Source: Halomarina rubra
Lineage (GTDB): Archaea > Halobacteriota > Halobacteria > Halobacteriales > Haloarculaceae
Assembly: GCF_023699475.1 (NCBI RefSeq)
Contig: NZ_JALXFV010000001.1
Location: forward strand, 127,534 to 191,533
Direction: 5' to 3'
Length of the DNA stretch: 64,000 nt
Made by a program: the position numbers and the translations under genes. The notes below the pieces were generated by a model, which was not told the DNA's origin, ran no database searches, and saw nothing but the letters and a program-made list of their open reading frames with translations. Position 1 is the first letter of the stretch; the number at the start of each line of letters is the position of its first letter. Of the stretch, positions 19,942 through 28,190 are shown one piece after another.

Positions 19942-20217
19942 ATGGCCAAGAAGAAAGGAACGGTCGGCTCTGCCGGTCGCTTTGGCGCTCGCTACGGCCG
20001 CGTCGCTCGCCGTCGCGTCGCGGAGATCGAATCGGACATGCACGACGACCACACCTGCCCCGACTGCGGGTCGGACGCCGTCGACCGCAAGGGCACGGGC
20101 ATCTGGGCGTGTGGCCGCTGTGACTACACGTTCGCCGGCGGTACGTACCGCCCCGAGACGCCCGGTGGCCGTCAGGTCCGACGCTCCATCCGCGCCGCGC
20201 TGTCCGACAGCGAGTAA
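19942..20217 (+). CDS. rpl37ae: Large ribosomal subunit protein eL43 (L37Ae)
   Basis: This 91-residue zinc-ribbon ribosomal protein has Cys39 and Cys42 in CPDCG, and Cys57 and Cys60 in [11 protein letters not shown]. The N-terminus [18 protein letters not shown] is the basic rRNA-binding tail. Start ATG 19942 gives the standard N-terminus; the upstream frame start at 19918 would add residues across the transcription start. It is followed by rpoP after 23 nt and pcc1, the usual archaeal order. Confidence 0.96.
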
Positions 20218-20240
20218 CCCCCCGACCCCCTACACCAGCT

Positions 20241-20375
20241 ATGAGCTACAAGTGTTCTCGATGCAAGCGTGACGTCGAACTGGACGAGTACGGCGGCGTC
20301 CGGTGTCCGTACTGTGGGCACCGCGTGCTCCTCAAAGAGCGTAGCCGCGACGTGAAGGAAGTCCAGGTCGAGTAG
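20241..20375 (+). CDS. rpoP: DNA-directed RNA polymerase subunit P (Rpb12-like)
   Basis: This 44-residue protein starts at ATG 20241 and ends at TAG 20375. It carries a zinc ribbon with Cys5/Cys8 (CSRC) and Cys22/Cys25 (CPYC), then [19 protein letters not shown]. This is subunit P, the archaeal homologue of eukaryotic Rpb12. It lies between eL43 and pcc1, only 2 nt before the pcc1 GTG, so it is part of the same operon. Confidence 0.95.
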
Positions 20376-20377
20376 CC

Positions 20378-20659
20378 GTGACCGCCGGTCGGGGTGACGG
20401 CCACGCCGACCCGCCACACAGCGTCGTTCTCACGTTCACCTACCCCGACAGCCGAACGGCCGAAATCGTCGAGCGGAGCGTCCGTCAGGAGGTCGACGAC
20501 ATCGAGGGCGACCGAACCAGCGCGACCGTCTCGCGAGCGGGGACGGTGCTCACCGTCGACGTGGCGGCCGAGGACCTCGTCGCCCTGCGAGCGGGCCTGA
20601 ACACGTGGTGTACGCTGGTGGAGGTCTCGGAGCGAAGCTCCGAGGCCAGTGAGCCGTAG
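20378..20659 (+). CDS. pcc1: KEOPS complex subunit Pcc1
   Basis: This 93-residue dimerising subunit belongs to the KEOPS complex, which makes N6-threonylcarbamoyl-adenosine (t6A) in tRNA. The pattern is a strand VVLTFTYPDSRTAEIVERS, a middle SATVSRAGTVLTVDVAAED, and a last helix LVALRAGLNTWCTLVEV. GTG 20378 follows rpoP by 2 nt. The C-terminus VSERSSEASEP sits on a DNA hairpin (20626-20644), and an in-frame echo of these codons follows the stop. Confidence 0.9.
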   Translation: MTAGRGDGHADPPHSVVLTFTYPDSRTAEIVERSVRQEVDDIEGDRTSATVSRAGTVLTVDVAAEDLVALRAGLNTWCTLVEVSERSSEASEP

Positions 20660-20703
20660 TCTCGGGACGTTGCAGAACGAAGCTCCGAGGCCAGCGAATC
20701 GTG
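20626..20703 (+). repeat. Hairpin and in-frame duplicate of the pcc1 3' end
   Basis: CTCGGAGC-GAA-GCTCCGAG (20626-20644) is a perfect 8-bp hairpin inside the last pcc1 codons. A 17-nt word (CGAAGCTCCGAGGCCAG) at 20633-20649 recurs at 20678-20694, exactly 45 nt later and in the same frame. The frame between is open after the stop. First copy: RSSEASEP-TAG. Second copy: RSSEASES-TGA. Confidence 0.7.
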
Positions 20704-20810
20704 ACGGGACCGGTCTCGGGGTGTCACGCCGCGTCCGTCGGAAAATCGTGTCGTCCGGTCGACGAGCCGAATAGCGGCCCTTTTTCACTCTGGAAGGCGA
20801 GTGACCGGAC

Positions 20811-21215
20811 ATGCAAGGAAATCTGCCGCCGGAAGCGCAGGAGAAGATCGAGGAACTGCAGGACCTGCAGGAGACGGCCCAGAACGTCGCGATGCAGAAA
20901 CAGCAGGCCGACTCGACGCTCGCGGAGTCCGAGGCCGCTCTCGACCAGTTCGAGGAGATCGACGAGGACACGACGATGTACCAGGAGGTCGGCGAACTGC
21001 TCGTCCAGACCGACTACGACAACGCCAAGGACGACCTCGAGGAGAAGGTCGACAGCCTCGAGATTCGCGTCGAGACGCTGAACAAGCAGGAAGAGCGCGT
21101 CCAGGAGCGTTTCGAGGAGCTCCAGCAGGAACTGCAGGAGATGCTCCAGGGCGGCGGCGCGGGCGGCCCGCAGGGTCCCGGCGGCCCCGGCATGGGCGGT
21201 CCCGGCGGCGACTGA
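20811..21215 (+). CDS. pfdB: Prefoldin subunit beta
   Basis: This 134-residue subunit of the prefoldin chaperone hexamer captures unfolded proteins. It is a coiled coil from about 8-45 and 70-115 joined by a short beta hairpin ([19 protein letters not shown]), then a Gly/Pro-rich tail after residue 116. ATG 20811 gives [16 protein letters not shown], the family start. CTTTTTC about 26-31 nt upstream may act as its promoter element and as a terminator for pcc1. The DUF3194 gene starts 3 nt after its stop. Confidence 0.95.
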
Positions 21216-21218
21216 GCG

Positions 21219-21491
21219 ATGCCGACGGAAGCAGACCGAGAACCGACCGACGAGGAGGTCGTCCAGACGGCCAGCGACGCCGCGGAGGGCGTCGTCCTCT
21301 CCCGGTACAAACAGAGCGAGGTGCGTGACGTCGACGTGACCGTCCACTTCGAGGACGGCACGCTGTCGGTCGACGTCTACCTCGACGCGCCCGGCGACGC
21401 CGAAGCGGTCGCCGACGAAGCGGCGCTCGCGGCACGCAGCGCGGTCGACGACCTGTTCGCCGAAGCCGAGGCCGACGCCGACGCGAACTGA
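21219..21491 (+). CDS. DUF3194 family protein
   Basis: This 90-residue, very acidic protein has one alpha/beta domain. VVQTASDAAEGVVLSRYK is the helix, followed by paired strands RDVDVTVHFEDGTLSVDVYLD. DUF3194 is an archaeal family usually found next to prefoldin beta and pcc1, as here (3 nt gap). Its function is unknown; the strand pattern resembles KH or Pcc1-like folds. The run of Ala/Asp/Glu at the C-terminus is a halophile feature. Confidence 0.85.
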   Translation: MPTEADREPTDEEVVQTASDAAEGVVLSRYKQSEVRDVDVTVHFEDGTLSVDVYLDAPGDAEAVADEAALAARSAVDDLFAEAEADADAN

Positions 21492-26696: not shown

Positions 26697-26920
26697 TCAC
26701 GGACTGTCTCGGCGGGTAAAGCGAGTGATTCGGTCTCGCGGGAACTGACTCGTAGTGAACTGCTCGCCGTTCCCGCTCGACGCTTGCGGTGTCGCTTACG
26801 GCGACAACCGCTGCCGGTCTCGCGGGAACACGGTCGCTTCGCTACGCTTCACTCCCTGTCCCCACCCTCGGACAGCGGCCTCGCCTCACGGCGAGAGCCG
26901 CTGTCGGTCGCGTGGGAACA
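26697..26920 (-). repeat. Serial in-frame echoes of the aspS 3' end
   Basis: The last aspS codons ([13 protein letters not shown], stop 26886-26888) recur 90 nt downstream as [13 protein letters not shown] (stop 26796-26798). FPRDR recurs 84 nt further on, ending in RRDSP-TGA (stop 26697-26699). All three are in the aspS frame, with no other stop between them. Copies 1 and 2 match at 29 of 35 bases, and all six differences are synonymous or swap one stop codon for another. A hairpin places the aspS stop in its loop (CTCGCC-TCAC-GGCGAG). Confidence 0.75.
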
Positions 26921-28190
26921 ACACAGCCTCCCGGATGTTGTCGAGTCCGAGCATCGTCATGACGAGGCGCTCGCCACCGAGGCCGAAGCCGGCGTGGGGC
27001 GGCATGCCGTAGCGGAACATCTTCGTGTAGTACTCGAACGCCTCGGGGTCGAGACCCTGCTGTTCGAACCCGGCGACGAGTTCGTCGTAGCGGTGTTCAC
27101 GCTGGCCGCCCGAGACGAGTTCCATGTCCGGGTGCATCATGTCGAAGCCCGTCGAGAGGGACTCGTCGTCGTCGTGGTCCTTGATGTAGAACGGCTTGAC
27201 CTCGCTGGGCCAGTCGGTGATGAAGTAGTGACCGCCGACGTCGGCTCCGAGCGCCTTCTCGGCCTCCGTCGAGAGGTCGTCGCCGAACACGAGCTGTTCG
27301 TCGAGTTCGCCCGTCGCGTTGACGCGCTCGATGGCCTCCTCGTAGGAGAGCCGCGGGAAGTCCTCCTCGGGCACCTCGAACTCGTCGGCGAGACCGAGCG
27401 TCTCCAGTTCGTCGGCGCACTCCTCGGCGACGGCCGCGTAGGCCGCCTTCAGCGCGCCCTCACAGACGTCCATCGCGCCCTGGTGGTCGGTGAACGCGCT
27501 CTCGAAGTCGATGGAGGTCGCCTCGTTGAGGTGTCGCGGCGTGTTGTGCTCCTCGGCACGGAAGATAGGGCCGATTTCGAAGACGCGCTCCAGTCCGGAG
27601 CCGACCATCAGCTGTTTGAACAGCTGTGGCGACTGGTTCATGAACGCCTCCTCGCCGAAGTACGTGATGGGGAACAGTTCGGTGCCGCCCTCGGTGCCGG
27701 TGGCGACGATCTTCGGCGTGTTGATCTCCGTCGCGTTCTGCGAGCGGAAGTAGTCGCGGACCGCTTCGAGGACGGTCGCGCGAATCTCGAAGATGGCCTT
27801 CGGCTCGTCACGGCGCAGGTCGAGGGTGCGGTTGTCGAGTCGCGTCGGGAGTTCGGCGTCGACCTTCCCGGAGGGGTCGAGGGGGAGTTCGGGGTCGGCG
27901 GGTGCGACGACCTCGACGCTCTCGGGGACGACTTCGACGCCCGTGGGGGCGCGTGGCTCCTCCTCGACCGCACCGGTGACCTGCACGACGGACTCTCGCG
28001 AGACGTTCGTGCCCGTCTCGACGAGGTCTTCGTCCATCTCGTCTTTCGCGAACTTGACCTGAATCTTGCCGGTCTTGTCGCGTACGATGAGGAAAGCGAT
28101 GCCGCCGAGGTCGCGGATCTCGTGTGCCCAGCCGGCGACGGTGACGTGGTCGCCCGGTTCGGCGTCCGCTGTGTACGTTCGGTCGTCCAT
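26886..28190 (-). CDS. aspS: Aspartate--tRNA(Asp/Asn) ligase
   Basis: This 434-residue class II synthetase has an N-terminal OB fold ([19 protein letters not shown], residues 15-33), then the catalytic domain. Motif 2 is [15 protein letters not shown] and motif 3 [15 protein letters not shown]. It is the archaeal/eukaryal type, 430-440 residues. Euryarchaeal enzymes of this type often also charge tRNA(Asn) where a GatCAB amidotransferase exists; gatB is in this window. Discrimination depends on anticodon-loop contacts I cannot read with certainty. The 3' end is followed by two displaced copies of its own C-terminus. Confidence 0.94.

Follow-up and report, generated by a model that had tools for sequence, protein, structure and literature searches.

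A shared short tandem duplication of the pcc1 gene end with stop-codon turnover in Halomarina

The duplicated 3' end of pcc1

The 3' end of pcc1, a small tRNA-modification gene of a salt-loving archaeon, is followed by a second copy of itself, and our comparisons confirm that this echo is a local short tandem duplication of the gene end, shared with a related species and accompanied by turnover of the stop codon. Within the 64,000-nt stretch analysed (hereafter the window), pcc1 occupies positions 20378-20659 of the forward strand and encodes the KEOPS subunit Pcc1 of 93 residues (Pfam PF09341 Pcc1, E = 1.1e-16, residues 16-87), the C-terminus of which reads SERSSEASEP, followed by TAG. It is flanked by an RNA polymerase zinc-ribbon gene, itself preceded by rpl37ae, on one side, and on the other by the downstream gene of the prefoldin beta subunit (20811-21215, +; Pfam PF01920 Prefoldin_2, E = 1.1e-23). 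Directly after prefoldin beta sits a DUF3194 gene (21219-21491, +), which by its size and neighbourhood is a possible candidate for the Pcc1 paralog Pcc2.

The proximal copy of the duplicated end, ...EVSERSSEASEP-TAG, spans positions 20620-20659, and the distal copy, ...DVAERSSEASES-TGA, spans positions 20665-20704, both on the forward strand. A repeat search with 20620-20657 as the reference copy aligned this segment to 20665-20702 with 30 of 38 bases identical (79%) at a period of 45 nt, and the two segments share the 17-mer CGAAGCTCCGAGGCCAG at 20633-20649 and 20678-20694. The two stop codons, TAG at 20657-20659 and TGA at 20702-20704, are exactly 45 nt apart in one frame, which is open for 14 codons past the TAG. 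The initial annotation had described an echo exactly 45 nt on, in the same frame, without an intervening stop and with 17 identical bases. The sequence agrees with this description, and the repeat extends further, to 38 nt; the echo was correctly located, but its end had been set at 20703, one base short of the TGA. The changes had also been called mostly synonymous, in line with the differences between the two window copies, which number 2, 0 and 6 at codon positions 1, 2 and 3, respectively (P = 0.009).

A 24-mer of the echo found no match with up to three mismatches in any of 100 shuffled windows, and first-order Markov copies of the window reached a self-identity of at most 28/38 at shifts of 38-150 nt in all ten trials, compared to 30/38 in the real sequence. 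The aspS repeat of the window also reaches 30/38 and other coding repeats up to 29/38, and thus the DNA identity of the pcc1 echo alone is not far above the coding-sequence background. The 13-mer GCTCCGAGGCCAG has only two exact occurrences in the 4.07-Mb genome, both at the pcc1 end, which argues for a local rather than a dispersed repeat. With up to one mismatch, it occurs ten times (the two exact sites and eight others), compared to 25 for a reversed control pattern. A dispersed palindromic (REP-like) repeat is therefore ruled out, and the objection that the shared word might be scattered over the genome and unrelated to pcc1 did not survive this search. Two head-to-tail copies with one period, in a genome without other exact copies, identify the echo as a short tandem duplication. 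No paper on it was found in a search of the literature on duplications, template switching, terminators, palindromes, tandem stops and Pcc1, which drew on passages of PMC9889334, PMC7237163 and PMC8211752.

The displaced in-frame copy has a history, as the closest named relative, Halomarina oriensis (L018; identical in the pcc1 region to G004/L012), carries both copies with the same 45-nt period. The alignment of the two species is free of gaps through both copies, over 105 nt counted from AACACGTGG up to the second stop. Where the window has its TAG, H. oriensis has TCG, so that a single reading frame runs through both copies and reads ERSSAASKT-S-SCDVSERSSGANES-TGA at its end. Its pcc1 is 15 codons longer, ending in ...ERSSAASKTSSCDVSERSSGANES-TGA, and the distal window copy is homologous to this coding sequence. 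Single-copy relatives are also present at the orthologous place: G002 and G006 each possess a single ERxSxAS tail and, like the window, have TAG at the codon in question. This codon is TAG in three of the four species with the ERxSxAS tail, and G002 and the window both have CCG-TAG-TCTCG. The single copy of G006 may reflect secondary loss of a copy. G001, G003 and G005 possess different pcc1 tails, and no pcc1 was found in G007 (73% complete). All pairs of copies are identical at 25-31 of 36 bases, which fits a duplication of roughly the same age as the split between the species. The spacers of G002 and G006 gave no clean alignment owing to the diverged flanks; judged by eye, 45 or about 54 nt are extra compared to G002. 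Pcc1 and prefoldin beta are separated in G002 by a regulator-like gene of about 215 residues (L014, 1750-2790), whereas only a short spacer lies between the two genes in the window, H. oriensis and G006.

Across haloarchaea, Pcc1 tails vary between genera in length and sequence. The pcc1 search of 110 loci yielded 98 matches, 94 of them distinct. Three of the 94 ends (the window, Halorubrum rubrum L034 and G005) have an echo with a score of at least 16, compared to 0.2 expected, and five have one with a score of at least 14, compared to 1.2 expected; H. oriensis is absent from the three because both of its copies lie inside the gene. Halorubrum rubrum is a fresh example of gene-end duplication, in which an exact tandem copy of the pcc1 end with a 23-nt period, out of frame, matches the end itself as far as the final base of the stop. 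In Halorubrum sp. Boch-26 (L054), the pcc1 tail has grown by in-frame repeats, ...ERVSSERVGSERVGSERVGSERDRE.

A hairpin within the pcc1 coding end

The proximal copy contains a stem-loop at positions 20623-20647 (+), inside the pcc1 coding end. The perfect 8-bp hairpin seen at first, which pairs 20626-20633 with 20637-20644 around a GAA triloop, grows to 11 bp with one U-G pair. This structure, GGUCUCGGAGC-GAA-GCUCCGAGGCC, has a folding energy of -21.5 kcal/mol, and none of 200 shuffles folded as well. The second window copy does not form it (-4.4 kcal/mol). The same 11-bp stem is built from different bases in G002 (-22.0 kcal/mol) and in the first copy of H. oriensis (-19.4 kcal/mol), and partial folding is seen in G006 (-14.8 kcal/mol) and in the second copy of H. 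oriensis (-11.1 kcal/mol). Three of the four species thus have an intact stem at the coding position, and the extra copy of the window has none. No Rfam family was detected at 20000-21300 up to an E-value of 1. The DNA mini-hairpin word GCGAAGC has special stability; it occurs five times per strand of the window, an ordinary count within the range of similar words, and its enrichment was dropped as a candidate.

A hairpin selected as an RNA element, for example in 3'-end formation, would make the echo a by-product or spare copy, a reading that we regard as possible but doubtful and that is compatible with duplication. In favour of it, the six rows compared, which come from four species and include three imperfect folders, have 89.4% of their cells paired, and three of the 11 pairs change on both sides, including silent codon positions (columns 6/24 and 9/21). 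Further pair types number eight, compared to 4.5 in shuffles (0/500 as high), and the covariation measure is 0.230 against 0.103 (8/500). Six of the 11 pairs, however, never vary, and pairs that change on both sides also turn up in shuffles with some frequency (108/500). Folding is stronger in the seven Halomarina pcc1 ends than in the 86 pcc1 ends from other haloarchaea (P = 0.003 in a post hoc test), although G005 and G006 are not outstanding in this comparison, and G006 has no excess at all (z = 0.29). The loss of the stem from the distal window copy also argues against selection on the element. At gene ends overall, stems are barely above chance: those of 8 bp or better were counted in 50 of 673 stop regions against 51 of 673 gene interiors, so that an 8-bp stem alone is not unusual. 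Perfect arms of at least 9 across the stop occur in 40 of 676 cases compared to 29.0 in swapped pairs, and a general enrichment of stop-spanning inverted repeats is thus at most marginal. The excerpted part of a study of Haloferax volcanii (PMC7237163) reports hairpins upstream of 503 termination sites and one tested hairpin in a coding region with 59% termination. The pcc1 hairpin likewise lies inside a coding region, and by this analogy it perhaps acts in RNA 3'-end formation.

History of the duplication and competing readings

We consider it probable that a single tandem duplication of the pcc1 3' end in a common ancestor was followed by loss of the stop in H. oriensis. The end with its stop codon would have been duplicated once, with a 45-nt period, in an ancestor that the window species shares with H. 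oriensis, presumably by slippage or microhomology. The Pfam Pcc1 match stops at residue 87 of 93, and the duplication would have been tolerated because the domain ends just before most of the duplicated stretch. The echo is in frame because 45 is divisible by three, a one-in-three outcome. In the window lineage, the original TAG would still terminate Pcc1, leaving the distal copy as an untranslated remnant, probably without function; in H. oriensis, one substitution, presumably from TAG to TCG, would have annexed the copy as a C-terminal extension of 15 residues. Because TAG is shared by three of the four species, the simpler reading is that H. oriensis lost the stop. In a tree from aspS and the pcc1 core, G002 lies outside G000 (the window genome), G006 and G004 (support 92/99); the support of just 92 for this outgroup and the lack of a clear order among the inner three species count against this explanation. 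Short tandem duplications at gene ends with stop-codon turnover are a known kind of event. The pcc1 case resembles them in the head-to-tail copying of a free C-terminal tail and in the extension of the protein where the stop is absent, but differs in that its copies straddle the stop and that the proximal copy holds a covarying hairpin. Overall, the pcc1 echo has the appearance of a small duplication of an ordinary kind, apart from the curious hairpin that it copies. Taken alone, it would be a small example of the growth of a protein tail, in which an end and its stop were duplicated and the stop was then lost.

Alternatively, the same duplication could have led to a long gene in the ancestor, of the kind that H. 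oriensis has today, and the window lineage would later have gained a premature TAG from TCG. This order of events has some appeal but is rather unlikely. The distal window copy differs from each of five other copies mainly at third positions (P = 0.002-0.022, five comparisons), which suggests that it was translated during part of its history, and this bias is easier to explain if the ancestral frame was long and the TAG came later than if the TAG was ancestral; moreover, the TCG of H. oriensis is a single step from TAG. What speaks against a late TAG here is that G002 and G006 share the TAG at this codon, in G002 within the same CCG-TAG-TCTCG. Third-position differences would likewise fit an imprecise allelic replacement, in which a foreign pcc1 end recombined beside the resident one and displaced it downstream, and the copies would be two alleles with separate coding histories. 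The first window copy, SEP-TAG-TCTCG, resembles the sole end of G002 and the second, SES, that of G006, much as an aspS echo in one species resembles, by eye, the real end of another. SEP and SES differ in one codon only, however, the divergence between the copies equals that between species and needs no foreign source, and the same arrangement in H. oriensis would make the replacement one old event, all of which renders it quite improbable. With 36 aligned bases per copy, the choice among an ancestral long frame with a late TAG, two alleles and stop loss is not firm, and the former two are kept alive. Features common to both copies of one species, CGA-AGC-TCC-GAG-GCC in the window and CGT-AGC-TC in H. 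oriensis, hint at gene conversion and weigh against the favoured reading. Programmed readthrough of the TAG would yield a second, longer Pcc1, to which the 14 open codons and the silent-biased changes lend some colour; TAG is the stop of 150 of the 842 genes called in the sample, and the excerpted part of a review of archaeal readthrough (PMC8211752) names Sec and Pyl, so that readthrough at pcc1 is hardly credible.

Echoes at other gene ends

From the pcc1 and aspS cases, the initial annotation had proposed a general process of in-frame end echoes. The corresponding scan of gene ends for downstream recurrence was run on 31% of the genome, and a simple script based on codon usage served to call the genes. 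Among 836 genes (864 kb) of the window genome, a threshold of at least 24 of 36 bases returned eight echoes, four in frame and four out of frame, compared to about 0.5 with swapped downstream regions. On reading, two of them (C10:285052 and C15:139580) are tandem genes that we take from their sequences to be cspA-like, and two (C10:107761 and C15:314370) are low-complexity coding repeats. The other four look real, namely pcc1, aspS, a presumably ribosomal-protein-like gene (C10:293052) and a gene that we take from its sequence to be nfo, for endonuclease IV (C10:271635). Local alignment over 1202 genes (1.264 Mb) gave a score of at least 20 at four ends, compared to 0.0 with swapped regions; these are two tandem cspA-like paralogs, aspS (23) and pcc1 (22). 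Five of 1202 gene interiors reached the same score, in a control stretch extending to 360 nt upstream of the stop, which in very short genes can pass beyond the gene. Five interiors against four ends, together with the even split of frames, argue against any broad excess at ends or preference for frame, and the proposed general process is not supported. Gene ends are not specially prone to echoes; instead, certain genes recur. In G005 (379 genes) and G091 (330 genes), a score of at least 20 was reached once each, by aspS in G005 and by a duplication with a 190-nt period in G091. Lower scores were obtained for pcc1 of G005 (16, period 45) and for aspS (19) and nfo (14) of G091.

The aspS gene of the window (26886-28190, -; Pfam tRNA-synt_2, E = 3.4e-85), taken as a comparator, has a 3'-end echo with a period of 90 nt. 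Echoes with a score of at least 16 are found at 13 of 31 loci of the family and none in reversed sequence; this count leaves L248 and L250 (the same place in two genomes) unmerged and leaves out the fragment L106. Six of the eight Halomarina loci and seven of the 23 others have them, and the copies begin 31 to 248 nt past the stop, at times several together. As in pcc1, the gene end is repeated downstream with silent-biased differences; compared to the 13 aspS loci with varied spacing, pcc1 has one 45-nt copy in two species in addition to two other cases (score of at least 16, 94 loci). From these sequence counts, the aspS 3' end appears to be a gene-specific echo hotspot and a larger matter than the pcc1 echo. 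Across the aspS loci (window 26750-26890, -; L098-L105 and L239-L261), the echoes differ silently and their spacing varies; by eye, an echo can look like the true end of the gene in a different species. In the window, the stop codon of aspS also lies at the centre of a long inverted repeat formed by the gene end.

It is tempting, though improbable in our view, to propose that certain haloarchaeal housekeeping genes, led by aspS with pcc1 and nfo next, accumulate displaced duplicates of their 3' ends. Hairpin ends would be repeatedly re-copied or re-imported in recombination and the old ends would stay downstream, where stop loss would occasionally re-annex one, as in the Pcc1 of H. oriensis. 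If the aspS pattern has the same cause, the 3' ends of haloarchaeal genes would be recurrent sites of recombination, and the leftover ends would record allele replacement in a form readable from one genome.

For nfo, ends with a score of at least 14 were found at five of 30 loci (57 genomes searched) and none in the reversed control, which is lenient since it loses codon structure. The end of the nfo-like gene of the window genome (C10:271635-272471, L172; family loci L262-L291) is echoed inside a region of GAGCGA-type repeats. In the ribosomal-protein-like gene (C10:293052-293582, L173), a perfect 17-bp inverted repeat with a TCGTAG loop spans the stop at the coding end and is followed by an out-of-frame echo at a period of 58 nt.
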